Assembly: GCA_016208875.1 (NCBI GenBank)
Contig: JACQXD010000061.1
Location: 1-38,356 of the forward strand
Length of the DNA: 38,356 nt
Source: Nitrospirota bacterium
GTDB taxonomy: Bacteria > Nitrospirota > Thermodesulfovibrionia > Thermodesulfovibrionales > UBA1546
Direction: 5' to 3'
Below the pieces are notes generated by a model that worked only from the letters and a program-made list of their open reading frames with translations, was not told the origin of the DNA and ran no database searches. Both the position numbers and the translations under genes were made by a program. Numbering within the stretch: the stretch's first letter is position 1; every line of letters starts with the position of its first letter. Shown here in pieces: positions 6,187-36,442 of the stretch.

Positions 6187-7188
6187 ATGTCAGTCAGACA
6201 GCGTAAAGACAGGAACTACAGATGGGAAATAACTCTATATTCAAAAGGTAAGAGAACTCGAATCCTTTTACCAAAATCCGTTACATTAGAATCAGAAGCA
6301 AAAGACATCGAAAAAGCACATATACAAATATCTCTCGAAGAACCTTTAACACCGCCGGTCAACGCCTCGATCAATCAAATGACTACGCCATTCTTTGAGT
6401 ACTGTGATATGCATAAGGCAAAAAGCACAACCCGTGATATTAAGTCCTGCTTCACAAATCATGTATTACCGATCCTCGGACATATCAGAGCAGATTCAAT
6501 TACTCCTACGCACTTCCACTTATACAAAAAGACAAGATTAAACGAAAAAGGAACCAACAGAACCATCTCAAAAGAAATTGCTTATATAGGATCATTCTAT
6601 AAGTGGGGTAAAAAATACGGCTACCTCAGGGGAATACCCTTCCGGATTGAAAGATTGCCTTATGACAGACCAATTCCAACGGTGCTTACATTTGACGAAA
6701 CTGTTAGTTTTATAAAGGCAGCTACACCGGACATCTATAGAATATTTTTTCTTACGCTCTATAACTGTGGAATGAGATTTAGCGAAGCAAGGTTTATAAA
6801 GTGGGAGAATATAGACATGCAGAACAGAACCATTACCGTAAAGGGAAAAGGCAACAAGAATAAAAAGCTACCCTTCGGGGAATGGCTCTATAAAGAGTTT
6901 TTAAATTTAGGCGTAAGCTCCGGATATGTCTTTATTTCAAAAAGAACAGGGGAACCGATACAAAATGTCAGGAACGTTATTGCAAAGGCTAAAAAGACCG
7001 CCGGGATATCTAAAAGGATACACCCACACCTTTTAAGACATACATTTGCAACACATCTACTTGAGGAAGGAGTAGACTTAAGAATCATTCAAAGTCTACT
7101 CGGACATACACAAGTCAGTACTACCGAATGGTACACCCATGTAGCCGTCCAAACTAAGCGAAACGCCGTTAATAAACTCCTACCCTAA
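6187..7188 (+). CDS. Tyrosine recombinase / phage integrase
   Basis: A 333-aa integrase with an N-terminal SAM-like DNA-binding region (residues 65-160) and a C-terminal catalytic domain. Catalytic residues are visible: Arg in NCGMRFSEARFIKW, the box HPHLLRHTFATHLLEEG, LLGH, and Tyr in TEWYTHV. It cuts and joins attachment sites through the Tyr. The gene has TTGTCA and TATAAT elements just upstream (6148-6153, 6170-6175) and no ribosome-binding site. It ends about 100 bases from the 3' end of tRNA-Arg(ACG), the usual arrangement for tRNA-targeted elements, so it probably integrated the phage-like region to its left. Confidence 0.92.
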   Translation: MSVRQRKDRNYRWEITLYSKGKRTRILLPKSVTLESEAKDIEKAHIQISLEEPLTPPVNASINQMTTPFFEYCDMHKAKSTTRDIKSCFTNHVLPILGHIRADSITPTHFHLYKKTRLNEKGTNRTISKEIAYIGSFYKWGKKYGYLRGIPFRIERLPYDRPIPTVLTFDETVSFIKAATPDIYRIFFLTLYNCGMRFSEARFIKWENIDMQNRTITVKGKGNKNKKLPFGEWLYKEFLNLGVSSGYVFISKRTGEPIQNVRNVIAKAKKTAGISKRIHPHLLRHTFATHLLEEGVDLRIIQSLLGHTQVSTTEWYTHVAVQTKRNAVNKLLP

Positions 7189-7220
7189 CCTACAGCCACC
7201 AAACCGCCACCAAGCGATTT

Positions 7221-7254
7221 AAGGGGGTTATAAAGAAAACCCTATAACCCCTTT
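7221..7254. terminator. Hairpin between integrase and tRNA-Arg
   Basis: A 12-bp stem (AAGGGGGTTATA with TATAACCCCTTT, one G-U pair) with a 10-base loop follows the integrase stop by about 30 bases. There is no strong U tract on either side, so termination may be partial. It can serve both the integrase and the opposite-strand tRNA transcript. Confidence 0.5.
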
Positions 7255-7287
7255 AAAAAATCTTTATATCACGCCCTGTTAAGACTA

Positions 7288-7361
7288 CGCGCCCAGGAGG
7301 ATTCGAACCCCCGACCTACGGATTCGTAGTCCGACGCTCTATCCAACTGAGCTATGGGCGC
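7288..7361 (-). tRNA. tRNA-Arg(ACG)
   Basis: The coding strand folds into a cloverleaf: acceptor GCGCCCA/TGGGCGC, D-arm GCTC...GAGC, anticodon loop CTACGAA (anticodon ACG), and a T-arm with GGTTCGAATCC. CCA is not encoded. The 3' end faces the integrase, so it is the likely attachment site of the left-hand element. Confidence 0.95.
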
Positions 7362-7367
7362 GCTATT

Positions 7368-15592: not shown

Positions 15593-15690
15593 GGGAGCGC
15601 ATAGGGTTCTGGTGTCCCTCCCGGACTTCAAATCCGGTGTTTCCGGCCACAAACCGGAAGGGTGGGTTCGATTCCCACACGCTCCCGCCA
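15593..15690 (+). tRNA. selC: tRNA-Sec(TCA), selC
   Basis: A 98-base class II tRNA with anticodon loop CTTCAAA (TCA), a long variable arm (TTTCCGG...CCGGAAG), a GGTTCGATTCC T-loop and an encoded CCA. The extended D-stem (GGGTTC.. / CCCTC) is typical of bacterial selenocysteine tRNA. TAAAAT about 11 bases upstream is a plausible -10. Its presence shows that this organism encodes selenoproteins. Confidence 0.95.
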
Positions 15691-18905: not shown

Positions 18906-19799
18906 TCAATTGTGATTATTGATCATCCTAAAAAGAATCTGATCTAAACCTACGTCTCTTAAGCAATTGCAAAGTATTCTATCACACTCCTTAACACCAC
19001 ACTTATTCCGATTATTCCAAGCTGCTCCTAATTTCTGATAACAATTATCGTGGTTCATACAGCAGGTATCAAGCTCATCTATCGGATCTCCAGGTTTATT
19101 ACCTGGCCCACAATAATTACCATGAATCGTTAGCCCTTTTGGATCGATTTCATTCACCGGATTATTTCCGACATAGATAAAAGGATTAAGCTTTAATGGA
19201 GAAGATAGTAAACTCTCAAGAGAAGAACTAAAAGACGAACTTTTACACGAAGCTACTTTTGTAGGCGGCCCATTCGCCGGATGCAATATTGGATCGAATT
19301 CAATATATCTGCCCACTTCTGCCATGTAATCCCTAAACCCGTTCTGGCTTAAGCCCGTCTCTATATCGTAAAACTGTCCAGGGAATCCCAAATGATTTGT
19401 AATGCTCCCACTAACTAAAGTCCGTTCCCCGAAAGGCAACAGATCGCCTTCCCAAACTATAGTCCCGCTACCGTTGGTCATGAGTATGGGGGTACCAATG
19501 TGGTCAACATGGATGAAGTACGTCTCTTCGATGTCTGCATAAGCAGTTACAGAGATGTAATAAGTCGTGCCATTAGTCAATCCTGTAATCGTGTAACTGG
19601 TTACATCTCCAACATCTGTTGAATCCATATAATTCCCGCTCTCTGTCCCCCAGTAGACCTTGTACCCATCAATACCAGTGTCAGTGACAGTGTCAGTGTC
19701 AGTAACAGCTTTTAGATATTTCAGAACAAACAGATAGGCAATGAGTTGCCGAAGAAGCAAGATTTGTCTGAGTTGTCTTATGTCGTTATATTTCATCAT
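18906..19799 (-). CDS. Orphan Rhs C-terminal module with phospholipase A2-like toxin
   Basis: The 297-aa product starts with the R peptide (MMKYNDIRQLRQILLLRQ), then half an Fn3 domain (DGYKVYWGTESGNY ... TNGTTYYISVTAYAD), then the Rhs core end (HIGTPILMTN, LPFGER, GQFYDIETGL, GRYIEFDP, YVGNNPVNEIDPKGL). The variable C-terminus has YCGPGNKPGDPIDELDTCCM followed by NHDNCYQ. The D-x-CC-x-x-HD-x-CY pattern and the YCGPG calcium loop are the secretory phospholipase A2 signature with the catalytic His-Asp pair. A complete Rhs protein would be over 1000 residues, so this is a 5'-truncated toxin reservoir module. A 34-residue Ser-rich insertion sits in the core. Confidence 0.82.
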   Translation of the reverse strand: MMKYNDIRQLRQILLLRQLIAYLFVLKYLKAVTDTDTVTDTGIDGYKVYWGTESGNYMDSTDVGDVTSYTITGLTNGTTYYISVTAYADIEETYFIHVDHIGTPILMTNGSGTIVWEGDLLPFGERTLVSGSITNHLGFPGQFYDIETGLSQNGFRDYMAEVGRYIEFDPILHPANGPPTKVASCKSSSFSSSLESLLSSPLKLNPFIYVGNNPVNEIDPKGLTIHGNYCGPGNKPGDPIDELDTCCMNHDNCYQKLGAAWNNRNKCGVKECDRILCNCLRDVGLDQILFRMINNHN

Positions 19800-22132: not shown

Positions 22133-23011
22133 TTACCTCCTCGATGCTACTTCATAGAGCATCATTTCTTCAGCCTTTTCTTGAGACGGTATTGAGACTA
22201 TCGCCCTGTAAAACTCAGGGATCGTAATATCTTCTTTCTTGCCGAGCAATGCAGCAAAGTCAAAGGGCTGTCTTGTTGCAACTATGATAAGGCATTCCGT
22301 TGCCCGTTTTTTTTCAGGTGCTATATCCATTTGAAGCCCGAATCCTTCGGGAGGAAACACGAACTCCTCATTTTCTTTTAAAGGGCTCATGGGCAGCCTG
22401 TCCATAGGTGCTATTATCTTTATCCGGTCATCCGCAGTCAGATTGAATATGTTTATGTAACAATCACGCGTGGCCTTTATCTTTATCTTTGCCTCTTCCC
22501 CGCGACTGAAGACCTCTTTATTTAGGTGTGCAGTTATCTTGAAGTAAGGGTCTTTTTCGCCAGCTCCGGCAACACATGCCTTTAATCTTACCCTGTAGCT
22601 AACGAGCGGAAAACTCTCTTTTGTCTTCTGGGATGATTCAAGTTCCCATGCCTCGATCTTTTCATCCGTTATGTATCCCTCTGTGAGGGTCTGCACTATA
22701 TCTGCCATGAGCTTGTAGTCCTTTACGAATGAACCGCCATTGATCTTGACGCCTGTCCTGCCCTCTATGGCAGATAGCCTTGCCCTGTTTATTGCAAGCT
22801 GTTTCATTTCATCAGGGGTCAGATTTTGTTCGAATGCCTCTCCTACGGCATTGATCCATTGACAGTCGGCAGCGGCAGATGATGAAAAAATGAGAACGGC
22901 TAACACAATATAAAATGCAAGGAAGAGTTTTATCTTAAAATCTCCCCTAACCCCTTTGCCAAAGAGGAGAACACGGTCTATCACACCCATGAATATATCT
23001 CTTGATAACAT
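22133..23011 (-). CDS. Exported DUF4384 domain protein
   Basis: A 292-aa protein. After a signal peptide (IKLFLAFYIVLAVLIFSSSA, AAADC) comes a FlgO/LPP20-like region (NAVGEAFEQNLTPDEMKQLA). A DUF4384 domain follows (DPYFKITAHLNKEVFSRGEE, then DCYINIFNLTADDRIKII). DUF4384 often accompanies or is fused to caspase-like peptidases in bacterial envelope proteins. The first 22 or so codons (MLSRDIFMGVIDRVLLFGKG) lie inside MITE copy B, so the element supplies the start codon. It sits between the caspase gene and the Gly-rich membrane gene. Confidence 0.72.
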   Translation of the reverse strand: MLSRDIFMGVIDRVLLFGKGVRGDFKIKLFLAFYIVLAVLIFSSSAAADCQWINAVGEAFEQNLTPDEMKQLAINRARLSAIEGRTGVKINGGSFVKDYKLMADIVQTLTEGYITDEKIEAWELESSQKTKESFPLVSYRVRLKACVAGAGEKDPYFKITAHLNKEVFSRGEEAKIKIKATRDCYINIFNLTADDRIKIIAPMDRLPMSPLKENEEFVFPPEGFGLQMDIAPEKKRATECLIIVATRQPFDFAALLGKKEDITIPEFYRAIVSIPSQEKAEEMMLYEVASRR

Positions 23012-23118
23012 ATCCTATCCCTATCATACAAGGGGAAGACACACCCCTCACCCCTCTTGATAGAGGGGAATATGAAGAATATCTCCCCCTTTGGAAAAGG
23101 GGGATGGAGGGGGATTTT
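22937..23118. mobile_element. MITE-like element, copy B (182 bp)
   Basis: It has the same terminal inverted repeats (AAAATCTCCCC ... GGGGGATTTT) and the same core (TATCTCTTGATAACATATCC; ATCATACAAGGGGAA) as copy A. It lies between the caspase-like gene and the DUF4384 gene and contributes the DUF4384 start codon, so its insertion reshaped the 5' end of that gene. Confidence 0.7.
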
Positions 23119-23131
23119 CCGAAGATTATTT

Positions 23132-24229
23132 TCATTTCACCCTTACTATTAATGGGTCAATGCCCTCCATTGCAAGGCTCTTTTTCATCACAGGTCTTTG
23201 AGGCCGGGACTGCCTTGTCTTTGATTCCACATTGGCGTATACATAGTCATAGAGTTCTTCGGCACGGATAACGCCGTCTCTATTAATATCCGCCTCGCCC
23301 AGCATTCCCTTCAAAAAGAAATATGTGAATAGACCATGTTCTTCTTCCTTGTAAGAGTTGCTCATCTGGTTCTTTTCCGATGATGCAAGTACGAGCATCT
23401 CCTTCTTGGATGCGAGGACCGGGTCTTTTACAATAATCGTTCCGGGACGGCCGCCGATGATGGACTGCAGCGTCTCGGACCTGCCGACCACTCCTGTAAA
23501 ACATGCATCGAGGATTACATAGACCTCTTTTGCATTTAAAGAGCCGAGGTCTGCATAAAGCTTATCGAGTGATAAAGCAGTGTTGCCGATGTTCTCGGGA
23601 TTACTGTCATGGAGCAAAAGATAGGGCGGCTTCTCGATTGCCTCTGCCTTCGGGTCAGGGACGCCATGACCTGCATAATAGAGATAAAGCGTATCCCCAG
23701 ACCGAACTTTTTTCTGTAATTCTCTTGAGAAAAGATCGTCGAGAGATGCCTTTGTGGCAGCATTGTTCAATCTCAGATATACATTATCGTTGGGTATTCC
23801 CATGAACTTTGTCATATATTCCTTTACAACCTCTGCATCCTTTTTCGCATAATTCGCAGGGATGGTATTTCTGTAGTTTTCTATGCCGATAACCACACCC
23901 CATTTTTTGCTATCTTTTTTCACAGGCGTCTCAGGGCCGTTCTTTATACAGCCATCAATATCCCCGCATATCCCTTCGGCAGAAACCGTAAATGATTCGC
24001 TGCTCTTAAAATAATTATCAATATAGACCTTCACCTTCCATTCGCCTGTGAGCTTCGCTGCCTTCTCGCTGTGTATACCTATCCTGTGGGCGCCTGTGAC
24101 CCTGTCGTGCCTTTCCCCTTCTTTGCTTATATCGTAATCCTCTGTCTTGAGATATAATTGGCCGTCGGGTGTAATCCATTCCCATCTGAGCGTATGCCTG
24201 CCCTCTACATTTTCTGCCTTAACCCACAT
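23132..24229 (-). CDS. Caspase-like (peptidase C14) domain, main part of a frameshifted lipoprotein
   Basis: Residues 1-90 form a beta-rich domain (GRHTLRWEWITPDGQLYLKT). From KKWGVVIGIENYRNTIP starts the caspase/metacaspase fold, with the catalytic His in LYLYYAGHGVPD and Cys in EVYVILDACFTGVVGR. Near the C-terminus ADINRDGVIRAEELYDYVYA resembles an EF-hand-like calcium site. The apparent start MWVKAENVEG lies inside a domain. The true N-terminus is encoded by the overlapping frame at 24219-24437, separated by a +1 shift in an A7 run. It is the first gene of an operon with the DUF4384 and Gly-rich proteins. Protease activity is predicted from both catalytic residues. Confidence 0.82.
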   Translation of the reverse strand: MWVKAENVEGRHTLRWEWITPDGQLYLKTEDYDISKEGERHDRVTGAHRIGIHSEKAAKLTGEWKVKVYIDNYFKSSESFTVSAEGICGDIDGCIKNGPETPVKKDSKKWGVVIGIENYRNTIPANYAKKDAEVVKEYMTKFMGIPNDNVYLRLNNAATKASLDDLFSRELQKKVRSGDTLYLYYAGHGVPDPKAEAIEKPPYLLLHDSNPENIGNTALSLDKLYADLGSLNAKEVYVILDACFTGVVGRSETLQSIIGGRPGTIIVKDPVLASKKEMLVLASSEKNQMSNSYKEEEHGLFTYFFLKGMLGEADINRDGVIRAEELYDYVYANVESKTRQSRPQRPVMKKSLAMEGIDPLIVRVK

Positions 24230-25877: not shown

Positions 25878-26156
25878 TTATAGCCCCATCTTTTTTAATG
25901 CCTCATCAGCACTTTTACTTCCTGCCGGTGCCTCCTCGGGCAGATATAACATTACCCCGCCTTTGACCGGTCTTATAACGATCTTCCCCTCGGAGGCCAA
26001 TTTGTTTGTTACCTCGACGGGATTTTCGCCGGCAAAATATTTCTTAAAGGCGTCATTGAATCCGGAATATACGGTATGAATACCTTTATACCCTTCCTTT
26101 CTCAGACTAACAATAGCCTTTTTCACAAACTCCTCATGATTCATTTGCTCCGACAT
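25878..26156 (-). CDS. Uncharacterised 92-aa protein, last gene of the SNF2 operon
   Basis: The small soluble protein reads MSEQMNHEEFVKKAIVSLRK, then HTVYSGFNDAFKKYFAG and EGKIVIRPVKGGVMLYLPEE. The second half looks like a winged-helix wing (KLASEGKIVIRPVKGG), so it may bind nucleic acid. A GGAGGGTAAC site precedes the ATG. It starts 11 bases after the zinc-ribbon gene, so it belongs to the same operon as the SNF2 helicase. No family recognised. Confidence 0.6.
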   Translation of the reverse strand: MSEQMNHEEFVKKAIVSLRKEGYKGIHTVYSGFNDAFKKYFAGENPVEVTNKLASEGKIVIRPVKGGVMLYLPEEAPAGSKSADEALKKMGL

Positions 26157-26167
26157 GTTACCCTCCT

Positions 26168-27274
26168 TTATTTGTTGTTATTATTTCCCTTATTGCATTT
26201 CGGACATATATTATTATGACATGCCCTACAGTATTGTTTCCCGCATTCGGTGCAAGGCTCAAAACACCTTGCACAAACAATATGCAGCTTATCATCGCAT
26301 ATATAGTAAGACCCCTGTGGATTATAACACGATTCGCACGGCAAAAAATCAAATTGCCTGTCAATGGGATTATAAATAACAGGGAATTGCCTCACGGCAA
26401 GTCTTCTTTTTATATTTATCCAGAATACCGGTGCATCAGTTTCTATTCTTACGGCAGAGAGGGGTTTTACATGAATATTCAAAGTATATTTTGAGACTAA
26501 GTCCTGGACCTTCAGCCTCTGCTCCATCTCGATTGCATTCACCTTATTCAGGAGTTTATCATCGGTCTCGCTTTTTTTCTCTATGGCATTTTTAACCTCT
26601 ACCTTAAGTGCTTCGTAATATTCATAGACCCTTTTAACGTCACGATTGAGCCTTCGCTCAAGGCTTTTCCTGAAATCCTTAACCGTTTCCTTTATCATCT
26701 GATTGACCGATAGATAGGCCGCATGAAGAACATCGTTTATATTATGCCTTTCAATATCTTTTAGTTCCCCTTCAATATCCTTTAAATCTGCTATATTATG
26801 TTCAATTTGCATGGTGGATAAAGTCAGCTCATTTATCAATAGAGGCAGGATACCTTCATGTTTTTCATCCGACAATGCCTCGTATTTAAAGTAGATTAGA
26901 AGGTAAGAAATGTTTTTAACCTCTGTCCTATCCTGACGAAAGACGGCATTGTTTAGAATGATCCTATCAGATACGACCCTCGACAGCTTTTCGATATTTG
27001 GAATCGCAGTCTCAATCGCGGCAATCGAAAATCTGCCCTTGCCTGCAAAAAGGTTTTTTATTGACCTGAAGAATTCAGAGTCATAAGATGCATATATCGC
27101 ATCGTCTGCCTTCTCATTATAAGAGAAAATAAGTCTCGCATACTCGGGCATGTTGAGAATATTTGAGACCTCTTGAGGAGCAACGATATCAAGGCTGCCG
27201 TCTTTCGTCTTTTCCACCTCGGCACCGTAATAAGTAAGTATATTAGCTATAACTTCAGGCAATGCTTTATTCAT
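26168..27274 (-). CDS. Coiled-coil protein with C-terminal zinc ribbons, helicase partner
   Basis: A 368-aa product. The middle (residues 150-260) is a long charged helical or coiled-coil region. The last 60 residues hold four CxxC-like knuckles (PCESCYNP; VCARCFEPCTECGKQYC; RACHNNICPKCNK), likely two zinc ribbons or a RING-like fold. It directly follows the SNF2 helicase gene (38-base gap). The constant pairing of a helicase with a coiled-coil zinc protein would fit a nucleic-acid-sensing complex. I do not know a family; function is inferred from context. Confidence 0.6.
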   Translation of the reverse strand: MNKALPEVIANILTYYGAEVEKTKDGSLDIVAPQEVSNILNMPEYARLIFSYNEKADDAIYASYDSEFFRSIKNLFAGKGRFSIAAIETAIPNIEKLSRVVSDRIILNNAVFRQDRTEVKNISYLLIYFKYEALSDEKHEGILPLLINELTLSTMQIEHNIADLKDIEGELKDIERHNINDVLHAAYLSVNQMIKETVKDFRKSLERRLNRDVKRVYEYYEALKVEVKNAIEKKSETDDKLLNKVNAIEMEQRLKVQDLVSKYTLNIHVKPLSAVRIETDAPVFWINIKRRLAVRQFPVIYNPIDRQFDFLPCESCYNPQGSYYICDDKLHIVCARCFEPCTECGKQYCRACHNNICPKCNKGNNNNK

Positions 27275-27312
27275 TTTTACTTCCTACTTCTTATTTCTCA
27301 CTTCTTACTTTT

Positions 27313-29613
27313 TTATGTCTCATAGTCATCACCAAGAATTTCATTATCCATTACCTTTGAATTCAGATATCTTTGTTTGGCATTCAAGAGTTCATTGCCG
27401 AATTGTTCGAACCCCGAATTAAGGCCTTCCTTATCGCTGCTTTTGAGCCAGATATCCATAATTATATCTTCGAAGTCGACATCGTCTCCGAGATGACCGA
27501 GTATCGGTTCTATCTCTCCTATAACCATCTCGAACATATTTATCTTGCTGTCGAGTATCTCGATTATATAATCCTCGATCGTTCCCCTGATCGAAAGGTT
27601 GAATATAAATACGTCTCTTGTCTGTCCTATCCTGTGCAGTCGTCCGATCCTCTGCTCGATCCTCATCGGATTCCACGGCAGATCAAAGTTTATTATGGTA
27701 TTACAAAATTGCAGATTCCTTCCCTCACCGCCCGATTCCGTAGACACTATGACAGGCACTTCATTCTTAAAACTCGATATTGCCGAATTCTTTTCCCTTA
27801 GGGCCATATTGCCCCTGAATGTAACGTGAGGTATCTCTCGCCTCAGGAGAAGGTCTGTGATGTAGTCCATACTCTTTACAAAATGGGTAAAGATAATCTT
27901 CTTCTCATCGGGATTTTTCATCAGTATTTCTATCAGCGCCTTACCTTTGCATATATCCTCAAGGCTGTCAATGGCTTCAAGTATATTTCCTAGTCCATTC
28001 TTATGAATATCCTGGCCTGTATGTAAATTGAGCAATGTATTCTTTATCGCAAAGGGACTGCTCCCCGCCTCTCTTAAAAGAAGATTAATCAGAGACTTTT
28101 TAAGGTTGTGTCTTTTCAGATATTCGCTTATCCCCGTATATATGTCCTTTTCGATAGCTGTCGGTTCGAGCCTCGTTGTTACAGCAAACCTTTTGGGAAG
28201 TTTAAGGTCGATAGCACTCCTTGTATTTCTTATCATCACATCTCTTAAGAGTTCTCTCAGTTTTTCTCTGTCTGCAGTTGATTTTAGATTGCCTTTCCGT
28301 ATGTATTCCTCTTTAAATTGTTTTTCAGTCTTGAACTGACCGGGTTTTAACAGGGTTATAAGATTGAAAAGCTCTATAAGATTATTCTGAACAGGTGTGG
28401 CTGTCAGGAGGAATATAAACTTCTTCTTTATCTGATTAACGAGTTTCCATGATAGGGTTGTCCTGTTCCTAAGATGGTGTGCTTCGTCAACGATTACAAG
28501 GTCATAGAATTGTTCGGTGACAAGGGGCATATTCTTACTGCTCTTTGCCGTATTAATGGATGCAATAATAAACCTCTGCTTCCAGAAGTTTACCGGATCG
28601 TTCATGAATTCAAGGTCGTCCGTAGTCATGAATTCCAGGCCGAATTTTGCCTGAATCTCTTCCCTCCATTGAGAGACAAGAGATGCCGGAGTAAGTATAA
28701 GGACATTCCTGACCATGCCCCGCATGATATATTCCTTCATCAACATCCCGGCCTCGATTGTCTTTCCGAGACCGACCTCATCACACAGAAGCGCCCTCCC
28801 ACGAAAATGTTTGAGAACTTTTCTTGCTGTCTCGATCTGATACCAGTATTTCTCTACATCGGTTATCGCATTCAAACACAAAAGCTCATCAAAGCCGCTC
28901 TGAATACTAAGATATGCATAATCAATCAACATCAGGGTTTCGTGCAGATTTGACCTGTTGCTCTCGGAGATAGGGGTGAACAACTTCTCGCTAAACGGCT
29001 CTATCTTTATGGGAATGCTGTATGAAGGAATCCGGATGACAGGCTTTTCTTCTTTCCATACCGGTTTCTTTTCAGCCTGAACACCGGACTCAGAACCTAC
29101 AGCTCTCGTCTTTAGAACCTGAGCTTGTTTTCTTTTTTTCTTTTCACTCCAGACCCCTGACCCTCGACTCCTGACTACGGATTCTTGACCCTTAAGTTCT
29201 CTTTTAGCAAGGAGATTCCATTCTTTAAACTTTATAAAACCTTCAAGTTCCTCAAATATCATTTTTGGTGATCTTTCAGATTTTAAAAAGGGTTGGCTGT
29301 TTCTAAGTTCTTTTGCCTTCTCCAAATATCCCTTTGCCTTAGAGATATTTTCGAGTGCTGCCTCTACACGGCTAAGCATTATATAATCGAGCCAGTACCC
29401 TCTGATCTTTGCTAATTTTATAAGCCATGGTTTGCTCATTTCCGGTTTATGCCATGAAGTTACACACAATTCAACAATATCTTCTAAAAGCTCACTATCA
29501 TTGGGAAATTGATACAGCATCTTCTCAAGGCACCGGTATGCCTTTCTGTATTCCTTCTTCTTAAGGAATTTTAAGTATGCATTGTATGTGTCCTCAGGAG
29601 TTTCGAATAGCAT
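27313..29613 (-). CDS. SNF2/RapA-like helicase with N-terminal TPR-like region
   Basis: A 766-aa protein. Residues 1-130 are TPR-like helices (NAYLKFLKKKEYRKAYRCLE). A linker around 145-195 is low-complexity and repeat-derived. The SNF2 core has all motifs: DEVGLGKTIEAGM (I), TPASLVSQW (Ia), VDEAHHLRN (II), LLTATPVQN (III), IIFTHF (IV), STESGGEGRNLQFC (V) and RIEQRIGRLHRIGQ (VI). It would translocate on double-stranded DNA or remove bound proteins with ATP, as RapA/HepA does. It is central in a five-gene minus-strand group with the 557-aa, zinc-ribbon, 92-aa and DUF4062 proteins. Confidence 0.88.
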   Translation of the reverse strand: MLFETPEDTYNAYLKFLKKKEYRKAYRCLEKMLYQFPNDSELLEDIVELCVTSWHKPEMSKPWLIKLAKIRGYWLDYIMLSRVEAALENISKAKGYLEKAKELRNSQPFLKSERSPKMIFEELEGFIKFKEWNLLAKRELKGQESVVRSRGSGVWSEKKKRKQAQVLKTRAVGSESGVQAEKKPVWKEEKPVIRIPSYSIPIKIEPFSEKLFTPISESNRSNLHETLMLIDYAYLSIQSGFDELLCLNAITDVEKYWYQIETARKVLKHFRGRALLCDEVGLGKTIEAGMLMKEYIMRGMVRNVLILTPASLVSQWREEIQAKFGLEFMTTDDLEFMNDPVNFWKQRFIIASINTAKSSKNMPLVTEQFYDLVIVDEAHHLRNRTTLSWKLVNQIKKKFIFLLTATPVQNNLIELFNLITLLKPGQFKTEKQFKEEYIRKGNLKSTADREKLRELLRDVMIRNTRSAIDLKLPKRFAVTTRLEPTAIEKDIYTGISEYLKRHNLKKSLINLLLREAGSSPFAIKNTLLNLHTGQDIHKNGLGNILEAIDSLEDICKGKALIEILMKNPDEKKIIFTHFVKSMDYITDLLLRREIPHVTFRGNMALREKNSAISSFKNEVPVIVSTESGGEGRNLQFCNTIINFDLPWNPMRIEQRIGRLHRIGQTRDVFIFNLSIRGTIEDYIIEILDSKINMFEMVIGEIEPILGHLGDDVDFEDIIMDIWLKSSDKEGLNSGFEQFGNELLNAKQRYLNSKVMDNEILGDDYET

Positions 29614-29656
29614 TAGTTTAGATTCTCCCCTCTACCCACCATCTAAGAATCATTCT

Positions 29657-31330
29657 TCATCCCTTATCACTCAAAAGTTTCTTAATCTCCTGCTGGAAAG
29701 CACTATAACGATTATAGCGACTCCTTATTTTATTAAAGAAGGCTTGTGCCTCGGTAGACCTACCCAGTAGATTTAATGCCTCTACACATCCAACAAGAAG
29801 TAACGCCGCCTTATCATAACTTCCACGATATTTATTCGATACTATGACATCCACTCTTTTCTCGATGGCTGAGTTTGCCCATTTGATATGCCGTACCCTA
29901 TCTTCTTCGGAAATGTCCTTTGAGAGGATATCTTTTTCAACAACTTCCTCGAATCTCTTATTCTGCTCATCCTCATATATCTCATTACCTATCCAAATCT
30001 TCCTGATAGCTGAATTGCTTTTTAAGGTCATCCCTCTTACAGAAGAAATGACTAAGAATGGTACAGCCACGGCCTGTGAACTATTAGCCCCTGACCATCC
30101 TAAAGGTTTCCCTTTGCTTGCCACATCCCACATCTTTTCATAGTCTTCAGTCAGGATATAAGCTTGAACCAATAGTTCCTCAGGATCGCTTGTGAATGAT
30201 TGTTTCCCCTGGTATTTTCCCAAGAAGTCAACAACTTCTTCCATTACATTTAACCGGCCTAATTCCATAGCACTTTCTCTGAGAGATAGTAGCCGTTTTA
30301 TATTGGGAGAAGAAAAGAATGCCTCCTTATGCATCTCAAAGACTAAATTTCCATCATTGATTTTTCCGGCTGATTGGGCTGCGAGATCAGATATCTCTGC
30401 ACGAATACGGGTTTGAAGAGGAATCACTTCAAGACTCTGTTGATATGCCTCAACAGCCTCTCTATTTTTTCCAGCTTCTTGTAGTTTGCTTATCCATACA
30501 AGATATACCTTGTCGAGCTTATTCCCGTGTTCTTTCGCAAGCATTGACAGTCCTCCTAAGCCTTCGAGTTCAAAGATAATGGAGCACAACATATCGAGAT
30601 TCTTCACATAACCCAATGCTCTCATATTTTGAGCAAGGACACTCTCAAGTAAAATCCCCTTCATGTCTTCAAGAAACTGCTCCCAGCCCTCTGGTTTGGC
30701 TGGAATCGCATCTTCAATTGTTTTTAAATCAAAATCGGAAGAGCCGATGTACCTGATGTCATTAATCTCTTCAAAAATAACCTTTGCCCTTTCCTTTTTA
30801 TGAGTAGTTTCGTATAAGGCTCTGAGGTACCTCGTCCTTGCCTCATCCAAATCTGTCTCGACCATCTCTGTTGACGAAAGCTGCCCGGGGAAATGGCCTG
30901 TTTCTTCACCCATATGAAATGCCTTTAATAATCTCCCATAGGCCTGGCAAGCAAATTCCATATTACCCGATAAAAATACATCATCTGTTCTATCAAATAA
31001 TTCATCCATCTCATCCACCCAGGATTCATCGCCCCACTCACGCTCATCATGAATCTTATCATCCCAACCCCAACCATGAGAGTATTTTCCATCTTCAATA
31101 CGTTTCACAAACTCATCAATATCAGTTAATAGGCTAGTATCATCCACTACAACTTGAGCCTTTTCTTTGGGTTTTAGCTCGGCTAAAAAGAATTCCCTCT
31201 CGTCTGGCTTGAGGTTTTTTGCCTTCATCAAAAGAATAGTCCTTATATCCTCTTTAGAAAGCCCCTCTATTTGTTTTTCCACTTCCTTCAAAAATGTCCC
31301 TAATCCCATCTTTTCTTTATTCATATTCAA
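29657..31330 (-). CDS. Uncharacterised 557-aa helical-repeat protein
   Basis: I do not recognise the family. The N-terminus has FLKEVEKQIEGLSKEDIRTI, then an acidic, Trp-rich stretch (SHGWGWDDKIHDEREWGDES), and the rest is regularly helical (LVWISKLQEAGKNREAVEAY is TPR-like; AALLLVGCVEALNLLGRSTE near the end). This suggests a superhelical scaffold. It lies 43 bases upstream of the SNF2 helicase gene on the same strand. A scaffold or sensor role beside the helicase is an inference. Confidence 0.6.
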   Translation of the reverse strand: MNMNKEKMGLGTFLKEVEKQIEGLSKEDIRTILLMKAKNLKPDEREFFLAELKPKEKAQVVVDDTSLLTDIDEFVKRIEDGKYSHGWGWDDKIHDEREWGDESWVDEMDELFDRTDDVFLSGNMEFACQAYGRLLKAFHMGEETGHFPGQLSSTEMVETDLDEARTRYLRALYETTHKKERAKVIFEEINDIRYIGSSDFDLKTIEDAIPAKPEGWEQFLEDMKGILLESVLAQNMRALGYVKNLDMLCSIIFELEGLGGLSMLAKEHGNKLDKVYLVWISKLQEAGKNREAVEAYQQSLEVIPLQTRIRAEISDLAAQSAGKINDGNLVFEMHKEAFFSSPNIKRLLSLRESAMELGRLNVMEEVVDFLGKYQGKQSFTSDPEELLVQAYILTEDYEKMWDVASKGKPLGWSGANSSQAVAVPFLVISSVRGMTLKSNSAIRKIWIGNEIYEDEQNKRFEEVVEKDILSKDISEEDRVRHIKWANSAIEKRVDVIVSNKYRGSYDKAALLLVGCVEALNLLGRSTEAQAFFNKIRSRYNRYSAFQQEIKKLLSDKG

Positions 31331-31411
31331 TCCTCACTCATAGTTTTTGTCTCGTGCCACTACTAAACATCTCTACGTGAGATTTCTTTTAATAACTCCT
31401 CAGCCTCAACT

Positions 31412-31783
31412 TTAGGCCAATGGTAGTGTTGGTTTTTCATTCCACACCTCGTCCCTGACAAATATATGTATCTCTTTATTTTCCTGTAAAGCAATTTTTG
31501 TTTCGTACCATGTAATACTAATATCCTCTTTTGGATACTTATTACCTGCATAAGTTCCGCCATATCTTTTGTCAATAATCAAAAGATATATATCGCATTC
31601 TTTGACCGCATCTATGCATGTATCATGTGCATGAAGACCATGTTTTTTAGGAAAATCAGGTGATTCATTCCAAATAGGCATATATCCCCATTCTTTGAGT
31701 GCATTTGCTAATTCAGATCTTAAATCCTTAAGGTCAAAACATGTAGAACTGATGAAGACCTTTTTACCATCCCTCTTAGTCAT
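31412..31783 (-). CDS. DUF4062 domain protein, possibly truncated
   Basis: The 123-aa product is essentially one DUF4062 domain: KKVFISSTCFDLKDLRSELA, then DAVKECDIYLLIIDKRYGGT and ITWYETKIALQENKEIHIFV. DUF4062 is TIR-like in fold and often forms the N-terminus of larger proteins, including NLR-like defence proteins. Here the frame ends soon after the domain (WNEKPTLPLA). A second frame with a plausible tail (HWPKVEAEELLKEISRRDV) continues past it, so a frameshift or deletion may have removed the rest. A GAGGATAG site precedes the ATG. It may be the first gene of the SNF2 group. Confidence 0.72.
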   Translation of the reverse strand: MTKRDGKKVFISSTCFDLKDLRSELANALKEWGYMPIWNESPDFPKKHGLHAHDTCIDAVKECDIYLLIIDKRYGGTYAGNKYPKEDISITWYETKIALQENKEIHIFVRDEVWNEKPTLPLA

Positions 31784-31894: not shown

Positions 31895-33181
31895 TTATTC
31901 AAGAAGCGATGGTTTATCAACCTCCATATTTTCATCAAGGGCAATGGCTTTCTGTTTTCTTAAATCATCTATCTTCTTCAAAGGTCTATCGAGCATATTG
32001 CTCCTTGTTGTAACAAGGGAATCATACTCTTTTTTTGCATCGTCAATCCTTTTGCCCATTGTTTCAAATTTTTCTTTATATAAACCCCATTGTTTTGAGA
32101 ATTCCCCCAAGAGCTTGAGTATCTCTGATGCTGTCCTTTCAAGGTTGAAGTTTGCAACTGCCTGCCTTATAACAGCAAGCACCGCATAGAGCGTGAATGG
32201 TGAACATAGAATAACTTTTTGTTTCAGGGCCTCATCCATTATTGTGGGATCAGCCTCGTTTATAAAACTGTAAACCTGTTCATTCGGGATAAAGACAATA
32301 ACATAGTCAACCGTGTTGTCGGCTGTATCTATGTAAGAACGGTTTGTCACACCTTTAATCATTATCTTTGTATTTTTGAGCAATTCCTCTTTAAATCTTT
32401 TTTTGTCATGTTCTGTCTGTGCATCCAGGTAGTTCTGATAATTTTCGAGCGGGAACTTAACATCCATGTTTATCTTCAGGCTGTTAGGCAAGAAAAATGT
32501 GTAATCAGGCCTGCCTGATGAGCCTTCAAGCGTTTTTTGTTTTATGTAATTTATGCCTTCTACGAGTCCAACGAGTCTAAGGATGTCTTCTGCCATGCGT
32601 TCGCCCCATTCGCCTCTCTTTTTCGAACTTGCAAGGGCATGCTTCAGGTGTTCGGTTGTATCCTTTAGTTTTGATGTTATATCCGCATGATGTTCAACAA
32701 GCGTAGATATCTTAACGCTTCCCTTTTCAACATCTGCTAATTTCTGCTGCATCTCAGAGAGCGTTTTTGCTATAGTCTCAACGCTCTTATCGATAAGATC
32801 TTTTTTACCCTCAAGCTCTTTTTTCCCCTCGACGGTCTGTGATTTAAGTTTTTCTTCGGCGAGTTTTAGGAACTCGGCAGAGTTTTTGGAAAGGGCATCA
32901 AGAGAGATGGACCCCAATTTGTCTGTAATCCATGTCTCTATTGTTTGAAGGTTTTTTTCTGCCTCCTGGTATTTTGCATCCATCGAGGCCCGCGCCTGTT
33001 TCTCATTGGTAAGTTCGTCTCTGATTTTTGCAAGCTCGACGTCTTTCTCTGAAATCTGCTGTTTAAGCACATCATTCACAGCCTCAGAGCTTTTTGCCCT
33101 TGAAGATGCAATGAGCCAGGTAAGCCAGGCAACAATTCCTCCGATTACTACGCCTAAAATAATATATGCTACCATTCCCAT
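31895..33181 (-). CDS. rmuC: DNA recombination protein RmuC
   Basis: A 428-aa RmuC. One N-terminal membrane helix (VAYIILGVVIGGIVAWLTWL) is followed by a long coiled coil (residues 30-190). The conserved nuclease-like domain has SKKRGEWGERMAEDILRLVG, GRPDYTFFLPNSLKINMDVK, FPLENYQNYLDA and NTVDYVIVFIPNEQVYSFI. The Asp and Lys of the PD-(D/E)XK-like core (the Asp in PDYTFFLP, then MDVKFPL) are present. RmuC limits inversions at short inverted repeats in E. coli, notable in a repeat-rich genome. It lies 19 bases after the DUF4325-like gene. Confidence 0.92.
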   Translation of the reverse strand: MGMVAYIILGVVIGGIVAWLTWLIASSRAKSSEAVNDVLKQQISEKDVELAKIRDELTNEKQARASMDAKYQEAEKNLQTIETWITDKLGSISLDALSKNSAEFLKLAEEKLKSQTVEGKKELEGKKDLIDKSVETIAKTLSEMQQKLADVEKGSVKISTLVEHHADITSKLKDTTEHLKHALASSKKRGEWGERMAEDILRLVGLVEGINYIKQKTLEGSSGRPDYTFFLPNSLKINMDVKFPLENYQNYLDAQTEHDKKRFKEELLKNTKIMIKGVTNRSYIDTADNTVDYVIVFIPNEQVYSFINEADPTIMDEALKQKVILCSPFTLYAVLAVIRQAVANFNLERTASEILKLLGEFSKQWGLYKEKFETMGKRIDDAKKEYDSLVTTRSNMLDRPLKKIDDLRKQKAIALDENMEVDKPSLLE

Positions 33182-33199: not shown

Positions 33200-33760
33200 T
33201 TAAATCTTTTCATACACCCAAACCCTTCCACCATCTCTTACTTCATCCGTCCTTTTAACAAGGCGTTTCTTGTGAAGGTTCAACAGCCTTGTGCCGCTTG
33301 TATTGGCCGGAAGCTTTAATGTAGAGGAAAGGTCTCCTGCCGTAATCCTCCCTTTCTTAGCTATAAGATTTAGAGTCTCCTGCAGATAGTTATTAAGATT
33401 CCCGATGAGGATTTTCCTGTCATCTCTCATCTTTGCAGTGACAGCGAGGTCTTTCCTCTCAAGAGCGACCTCTATGTTTTCCTTCTGGTTTTCGTTAAGC
33501 CCAATAAGAATAATATATTTGTCTCCATATTCACTACCGATCAGACGGGAGATAAGCTTTGCAATGATCTCATCAGCACAGGAATAATCTATTACCCCTA
33601 TCTTTGAGAAATCGAGAGCAATGATTTCCCCATCCTTTTCCTTCGATAGGTCTCTCTCAATCCGCTCCCTTATCACCTGGCCGGATGGCCGGGTTACCAG
33701 ATCGGTAGAACCATTCTTCAGTTCCTCCTTAAGGAGATTATAAAGATTGTAAAGCGTCAT
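33200..33760 (-). CDS. STAS-like (DUF4325-type) / winged-helix protein
   Basis: A 186-aa protein with two parts. Residues 20-110 contain RPSGQVIRERIERDLSKEKD, then IALDFSKIGVIDYSCADEII, a STAS/DUF4325-type motif. The C-terminal 60 residues form a winged helix (NLIAKKGRITAGDLSSTLKL, then GTRLLNLHKKRLVKRTDEVR). STAS-like modules switch by binding partners or by phosphorylation, so a regulatory role is likely. It is co-transcribed with rmuC. Target genes are unknown. Confidence 0.7.
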   Translation of the reverse strand: MTLYNLYNLLKEELKNGSTDLVTRPSGQVIRERIERDLSKEKDGEIIALDFSKIGVIDYSCADEIIAKLISRLIGSEYGDKYIILIGLNENQKENIEVALERKDLAVTAKMRDDRKILIGNLNNYLQETLNLIAKKGRITAGDLSSTLKLPANTSGTRLLNLHKKRLVKRTDEVRDGGRVWVYEKI

Positions 33761-35524: not shown

Positions 35525-36442
35525 AGACACTTTTGGGGACGCATTTTTCTGATAACCTGGAATGCTAATCAAGAACCCGTAGATGGATATAAGGTTTATT
35601 GGGGAACAGAATCAGGGAATTATACAAATTCAATAGATGTCGGAGATGTGAATAGCTATACGATTACAGGGCTTACGAATGGAACGACTTATTATGTTTC
35701 AGTTACGGCATATGCAGATATCAAAAGAACTCTTTATTATCATACCGATCATCTTGGAACGCCGGTGATGATGACGGATGGTAGTGGAACTATAGTATGG
35801 GAAAGTGAACTACAACCTTTTGGAGAGAGGTATTCGGTCAAAGGGAATATAACGAATAATTTAGGATTCACTGGTCAGTTCTATGATACGGAAACGGGAA
35901 CTAATTATAATTATTTTAGAGACTACAACCCTATTACTGGACGATATATTGAGCGTGATCCTATTGGATCTGCTGGTGGAATAAATTCATATATTTATGC
36001 AAATAATCCAGTAAACTGGATTGATCGTTGGGGGTTATATGAGTGCACCTACGATATAAGCAGCCACGATATGACATGTACTCCAAATAATTCAGGAAAC
36101 TTGACATTTAATAGTAGCAGTTTTGTTTCTGGAAATAATTTAAGTTCTCTCTGTTGTGATTGCCAAGATAATCCCGATAGGGATTATGTCCCTAACCATG
36201 GCCCAATTCCGGATGGAGATTATACTATTGAGGCACAAAAGACCAATTCAAGTCGAAGAAATTTAACACCTGATCCGAGTAATAATATGCATGGGCGTAG
36301 TGGCTTTCAAATTCATGGTTGTAGCAATAGAGATACTTGTTCAAATGGTTGTATTGGTGCAACCACAAATGCGACAAGGGATGAACTCAATCGGCTATTG
36401 TCTCTTGAAGAAGGTAATAATACACTGCATGTTCAACCATAA
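35525..36442 (+). CDS. Orphan Rhs C-terminal module with Tlde1-like (L,D-transpeptidase fold) toxin
   Basis: The frame is open from a stop at 35522. It has half an Fn3 domain (DGYKVYWGTESGNY ... TNGTTYYVSVTAYAD), then the Rhs end (HLGTPVMMTDGSGTIVWES, PFGERYS, GQFYDTETGTNYNY, GRYIERDPIG, YANNPVNWIDRWGL). There is no good start codon before GTG at 35648, so it is 5'-truncated. The toxin part shows GPIPDGDYTIEAQ and MHGRSGFQIHGCSN, then TCSNGCIGATT. The IHG...SxGC(I) pattern with catalytic His and Cys is that of Tlde1/DUF2778 peptidoglycan-targeting effectors. It lies just downstream of the PFK gene on the same strand. Confidence 0.8.
   Translation, partial: RHFWGRIFLITWNANQEPVDGYKVYWGTESGNYTNSIDVGDVNSYTITGLTNGTTYYVSVTAYADIKRTLYYHTDHLGTPVMMTDGSGTIVWESELQPFGERYSVKGNITNNLGFTGQFYDTETGTNYNYFRDYNPITGRYIERDPIGSAGGINSYIYANNPVNWIDRWGLYECTYDISSHDMTCTPNNSGNLTFNSSSFVSGNNLSSLCCDCQDNPDRDYVPNHGPIPDGDYTIEAQKTNSSRRNLTPDPSNNMHGRSGFQIHGCSNRDTCSNGCIGATTNATRDELNRLLSLEEGNNTLHVQP

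Follow-up and report, generated by a model that had tools for sequence, protein, structure and literature searches.

The contig JACQXD010000061.1 of a Nitrospirota bacterium of the class Thermodesulfovibrionia, analysed over its whole length of 38,356 nucleotides (hereafter the window) within a genome of 2.9 Mb, carries five consecutive genes on the minus strand, here named A to E in the order of transcription. Specifically, A (31412-31783) codes for a protein of 123 amino acids with a DUF4062 domain of the TIR-like NADase family (E 2.9e-20), B (29657-31330) for an all-helical repeat protein of 557 amino acids, counted from a TTG codon, with no confident family, C (27313-29613) for a SNF2/RapA-type ATPase of 766 amino acids (SNF2 8e-38, Helicase_C 1e-23), D (26168-27274) for a zinc coiled-coil protein of 368 amino acids that appears to be the detached counterpart of the C-terminal half of RapA, and E (25878-26156) for a small protein of 92 amino acids, read as an ancestral chromosomal neighbour outside the inserted cassette. 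On the other side of the insertion site lie, on the same strand, an RmuC gene (31895-33181) and a gene for a STAS-like (DUF4325) and winged-helix protein (33200-33760). The profile libraries searched returned no family match above curated cut-offs for B, D, and E. The first-pass annotation had described A to E as a five-gene module; the five co-directional open reading frames, their coordinates and strand, and the short gaps between them (81, 43, 38, and 11 nucleotides for A-B, B-C, C-D, and D-E, respectively) are borne out, whereas the module is not, as only C and D recur as a pair, and B, A, and E are not part of one conserved unit.

The conserved unit is C-D, which is present in several bacterial phyla and on haloarchaeal plasmids. 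Within the class, D is present in 9 of 150 genomes. The single window protein used as a query against genome contigs gave no match, while an alignment query retrieved D in 26 named loci of Nitrospirota, Planctomycetota (including Scalindua), Omnitrophota, Hakubella, deltaproteobacteria, and others, the hosts of C-D besides the window genome including Nitrospirae/Thermodesulfovibrionales. C adjoins D wherever the contig is long enough, except at locus L047, where the C query found none. Extra genes separate C from D at two loci: Scalindua has an N6/N4 DNA methylase gene there (L034:9082-10008), and SZUA-191 a HicB-like antitoxin gene with a small HicA-like open reading frame (L040:3195-3631). 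The two genes lie within 150 nucleotides of each other in 40 of the 42 measured pairs and overlap in 19 of the 42. Gene order, the loss of which the first-pass annotation had named as telling against its module, is thus kept for C-D and not for the five-gene set.

D is also carried by plasmids of Rhodovastum, Nostoc, Calothrix, Chondrocystis, Oscillatoria, and Haloferax, and the Haloferax D protein used as a query retrieved 12 haloarchaeal plasmid records. At the inspected plasmid loci in which the upstream gene is annotated, a "SNF2-related" or equivalent helicase stands directly 5' of D; in Natrinema the gene upstream of D is missing from the annotation table. The C-D pair is read as an accessory unit that moves horizontally. 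The cyanobacterial, alphaproteobacterial, and haloarchaeal plasmid copies lie near parAB, toxin-antitoxin genes, relaxases, and integrases, a setting that would suit a factor for the maintenance of plasmids or mobile elements or for counter-defence, for example one that clears host proteins off the DNA of the element, the chromosomal copies then being remnants of integrated elements. This explanation is considered improbable: no obvious element surrounds the bacterial chromosomal copies, no border repeats of 9 bases or more were found at the cassette in the window, and the haloarchaeal neighbours of the pair are defence genes of the host type (methylase, ATPase, and nuclease). As an observation on annotation, the D gene of Haloferax lucentense (L085:11239-13400) is unannotated, short genes being called on the opposite strand, and its frame goes on as a very long series of zinc-like CxxC motifs.

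The motor motifs of C are intact (DEVGLGKT, DEAH, TATP, and QRIGRLHRIGQ). Its N-terminal ~200 amino acids are helical with a weak TPR signal, and its SNF2 core, at about residues 250-700, is of the RapA type, aligns to the RapA/BrxHII-type core with an hhalign E-value of 1e-69, and has E. coli RapA as the best solved relative. The chain terminates 102 amino acids past motif VI (GQ), compared with about 320-570 residues from motif VI onward in the long-form relatives that could be measured, one locus being incomplete. The C-terminal spacer/restriction-endonuclease-like (REase-like) and coiled-coil domains of the RapA family are absent from the C chain and are found, by predicted fold, in the next gene, D. 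Since C ends about where the C-terminal region of RapA starts, and D matches that region, C and D together would represent a RapA-type helicase in two polypeptides. In a quick maximum-likelihood tree, a single branch separates all 28 split C proteins, from bacteria and archaea alike, from 32 long forms; this branch has a Shimodaira-Hasegawa-like approximate likelihood-ratio support of 99, and of 80 once long branches are dropped. The tree is consistent with, and does not prove, a single origin of the split.

By sequence, D belongs to an unrecognised family, as the first-pass annotation had stated: Pfam, NCBIfam, and PADLOC gave no match for it (the E-values are non-significant), and nothing significant was returned by its sequence against the PDB or by searches against predicted viral structures. 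By fold, conversely, it resembles the C-terminal half of RapA. The AlphaFold2 model of D (mean predicted local distance difference test, pLDDT, 88; predicted template modelling score 0.76) consists of an alpha/beta domain (residues 1-105), a beta sheet with an inserted coiled coil (111-302), in which the coiled coil is a long helical hairpin (helices 179-263), and C-terminal zinc ribbons (313-360). The 11 C-terminal cysteines are each kept in at least 22 of 23-24 relatives, although the ribbon varies, being absent in cyanobacterial D and extended in Haloferax. Among PDB structures, Foldseek matches the model significantly only to E. coli RapA (8spg, E 4.6e-6; 6bog, E 9.7e-6; probability 1.00; 300 columns), the next-best match having an E-value of 0.04, and the C-termini of RapA and BrxHII have been described with the layout that the model shows (PMC12839542). 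Moreover, the profile of haloarchaeal D matches the C-terminal profile of RapA/BrxHII with a probability of 95.9 in local and 97.5 in global mode and with a score of 70.9, against a maximum of 29.8 for the decoys (60 shuffles) and a probability of 2.8 for the reversed profile, and bacterial and haloarchaeal D align collinearly from end to end (probability 98.6, E 1e-15). The modelled structure thus identifies D as a putative detached RapA-type C-terminal half.

The neighbours of the pair in haloarchaea point to genome defence. DUF1156 and/or DUF499 genes are found nearby in 7 of the 12 haloarchaeal loci, several loci also have UvrD and PD-(D/E)XK nuclease genes nearby, and some other haloarchaeal copies adjoin restriction endonuclease genes; these neighbourhood counts are small and partly hand-chosen. 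A DUF1156-SNF2-D-nuclease-UvrD block is present in Halorientalis litorea (L143). Sets of DUF499, DUF1156, and SNF2 genes have been described as the BREX-related/Hma defence systems (PMC8565338, PMC12839542). The Swi2/Snf2 helicase of these systems, whose C-terminal domains are REase-like and coiled-coil alpha+beta, is present in the window divided between C and D, and neither the DUF499 ATPase nor the DUF1156 methyltransferase was found in the window genome. Taken with the conservation of the pair, its split, and its insertion site, all of them computational observations, this context favours, at somewhat better than even confidence, the reading that C and D constitute a split Swi2/Snf2 DNA translocase of the RapA/BrxHII type that is accessory and most likely serves genome defence.

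Several observations weigh against this reading. The bacterial D shows no link to RapA by sequence (hhalign probability 0.2-1.2), a direct link being found for haloarchaeal D alone, so that the relation of bacterial D to RapA rests on the fold and on haloarchaeal D as a bridge. The Foldseek TM-scores between D and RapA are low (0.28-0.30), and the match is therefore one of individual domains, whose overall arrangement is either different or flexible. None of C, D, and B has a recognised nuclease, many bacterial copies of the pair lie among housekeeping genes, and no phage or virus carrying D was found in the collections searched. Among 11 Nitrospirota genomes with C-D, DUF1156 occurs in none and DUF499 once, below the cut-off, which implies that the pair in these hosts would work by itself, together with B, or with partners that are not linked to it. 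To our knowledge, no experiment on the C-D pair has been reported.

Some of these points would equally suit a two-subunit factor that, in the manner of RapA, recycles or remodels RNA polymerase, clearing stalled polymerase or other proteins from DNA as an accessory pair with no role in defence. The sole significant structural matches are to RapA, the pair contains no recognised nuclease, its bacterial copies often have housekeeping neighbours, and on two Nostoc plasmids it comes after parA/parB. This alternative is nonetheless judged unlikely, as the patchy presence within the class and the spread over phyla and domains are unlike a core transcription factor, most haloarchaeal copies lie near DUF1156/DUF499 genes, and RapA is placed far from the split C group in the tree. 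The suggestion of the first-pass annotation, a multi-component machine for defence or for clearing RNA polymerase or DNA, is partly right, because D corresponds to a RapA-type C-terminal half that stands apart from its motor and because the site of the cassette in relatives carries restriction-modification and toxin-antitoxin genes; it named both explanations that are still live, while the five-part machine itself is not shown.

E is present in 84 of the 150 genomes of the class, mostly without C-D, and the STAS-like gene, which lies 5' of rmuC, in 51 of the 150, often sharing a contig with E. In 20 intervals between the STAS-like gene and E (L160-L179), which were picked to include long ones so that the counts refer to a non-random sample, the order STAS, rmuC, E is kept in all 20, and a DinG-like helicase gene is present in 11. 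In several intervals only rmuC, or rmuC and one small gene, lies between the STAS-like gene and E. Others carry cargo: L172 has a type II EcoO109I endonuclease together with a DNA methylase, more DNA methylases and a kinase-like defence gene occur in L167, L170, and L171, and PIN-domain/VapBC-like genes, recognised by sequence, in L164, L167, L168, and L172. In the window, A-B-C-D is placed between rmuC and E, while at L029 and L045 B-C-D precedes DinG, E, and a methyltransferase gene. These last three genes were considered as members of the cassette, but they match the ancestral STAS-rmuC-E neighbourhood; synteny therefore suggests that they are flank, with the cassette as cargo. In this class the conserved STAS-rmuC-(DinG)-E neighbourhood has the appearance of a spot into which restriction-modification, toxin-antitoxin, and other defence-like genes insert. 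In two Planctomycetota loci (L031:1906-2505 and L034:11408-11980), a 71-72% relative of the STAS-winged-helix gene of the window stands directly after D, a possible co-transfer; its membership in the cassette was rejected, as the gene is a class-wide neighbour. As a separate observation, some genomes (G050, G080, G108, G126, and G132) have two to four E units in tandem within a single frame.

B is lineage-specific: it was found in three genomes only, those of the window, L029, and L045 (G148), and always immediately before C. The likelier start is an ATG at 31324, two codons after the TTG, which has a better-placed GTGAGGA. The structure model of B is poor (pLDDT 55, from an alignment of 3 sequences), no support was obtained for a relationship to the SWIM-finger proteins found beside SNF2 genes, and a FokI-like match of 19.9 bits, under the Pfam cut-off of 25, was not used. 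Relatives of A occur in 11 of the 150 class genomes, mostly within longer frames, and none of these was shown beside C-D; the L029 and L045 contigs end at or inside B. A keeps a glutamate, E94 in SITWYE, at the +5 position of the S-I-T motif, and from this position E94 is the putative catalytic residue. The protein ends at residue 123, lacking a C-terminal auxiliary domain. DUF4062 proteins are TIR-like NADases, some of them antiphage, and one of these, KpSwz, needs its C-terminal auxiliary region (PMC13174449); by analogy, A could be an effector. In the window, a frame overlapping the end of A (31363-31575) runs on with "HYHWPKVEAEELLKEISRRDV", and A is maybe a frameshifted or shortened DUF4062 protein.

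A single machine of all five proteins, in which the TIR-like A would do the killing, accordingly has little to commend it. The co-directional genes, their short gaps, and the antiphage NADase activity that is possible for DUF4062 proteins speak for it, and the gene order that is not conserved, the missing auxiliary region of A, and the many genomes that have E without C-D speak against it. A to E as one module is rejected in view of the class-wide presence of E, the lineage restriction of B, and the finding of A beside the pair at no other locus, and the five-protein machine is regarded as very improbable.

In the favoured reading, that of a split translocase in genome defence, C would be an ATP-driven motor on double-stranded DNA, and D would supply the domains that follow the motor within one chain in RapA and BrxHII, that is, an REase-like domain (described as inactive) and a beta sheet from which a coiled coil protrudes, and would add a zinc ribbon to them. 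D would be docked on C and probably contribute target or partner recognition and clamp functions, a physical complex being suggested by the pairing of the genes, their translational overlap, and the fold. The cassette, with the helical-repeat B and perhaps the TIR-like A, would have entered the spot between rmuC and the gene for the 92-amino-acid protein. C-D may then track or remodel invading DNA, while other proteins inflict the damage: in haloarchaea, the products of the nearby DUF1156 methylase, DUF499 ATPase, and UvrD/PD-(D/E)XK nuclease genes, and in the window, perhaps, the NADase-like A. A bolder version, which is possible and put forward tentatively, is that of an unnamed two-gene defence module common to Bacteria and Archaea, in which a single, ancient event divided the RapA-type motor into one subunit for movement and another, bearing zinc, for recognition. 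In haloarchaea the two would work with the DUF1156/DUF499 and nuclease genes; in bacteria they would act on their own or with B as a helical-repeat sensor.

Comparison with known systems shows relatives of the parts. E. coli RapA shares the type of the SNF2 core of C, and its post-motor domains match D by fold; in contrast to C-D, RapA is a single polypeptide that has Tudor domains at its N-terminus and lacks both a zinc ribbon and a separate D gene, while C has a helical N-terminus and bacterial D has no detectable sequence similarity to RapA. BrxHII of type 3 BREX and the BREX-related/Hma helicases share the SNF2 core and have a C-terminal region that matches the haloarchaeal D profile, and BREX-related/Hma systems have methyltransferase and ATPase neighbours of the same kinds as C-D in haloarchaea; these helicases, however, are single chains, often with a fused nuclease, and the bacterial C-D hosts checked are without DUF1156 and without DUF499 above the cut-off. 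C also matches the SNF2 core of DISARM DrmD, Dpd DpdE, and Zorya ZorD, but scores far under the curated cut-offs (262 bits for DrmD_b, the cut-off being 950), and no DISARM (drmA/B/C), Dpd, or Zorya partner genes were seen beside C-D in the window. Swarozyc, a DUF4062 NADase defence, resembles A in the domain and in the glutamate at the expected place, and differs in its neighbours and in the auxiliary C-terminal domain that KpSwz needs and the 123 amino acids of A lack. No description of a split RapA-type helicase was found in the open-licence literature, which is weak evidence of absence. The parts are related to known things; as far as tested, no description exists of their split, of a pairing that spans two domains of life, or of the context of insertion.

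RapA-type motors recur in the antiviral systems type 3 BREX, BREX-related/Hma, DISARM, and ARMADA, and the natural split makes the post-motor domains separately removable, restorable, and mutable, so that their role is directly testable. Moreover, on haloarchaeal and cyanobacterial plasmids the pair provides a likely identity for the "hypothetical protein" genes that come after those called "SNF2-related protein", and the rmuC-E site is marked as a likely insertion spot for defence genes in this Nitrospirota class. Lastly, other features of the window include a phage-type integrase gene beside a tRNA-Arg gene (6187-7362), with many small minus-strand open reading frames leftward, a probable integrated element; a predicted selenocysteine tRNA with the anticodon tca (15593-15690); a caspase-like peptidase (C14) adjoining a DUF4384 protein (22133-24229); and two short RHS-core fragments (35648-36442 and 18906-19799) with differing C-terminal domains, Tlde1-like and phospholipase A2-like, respectively.

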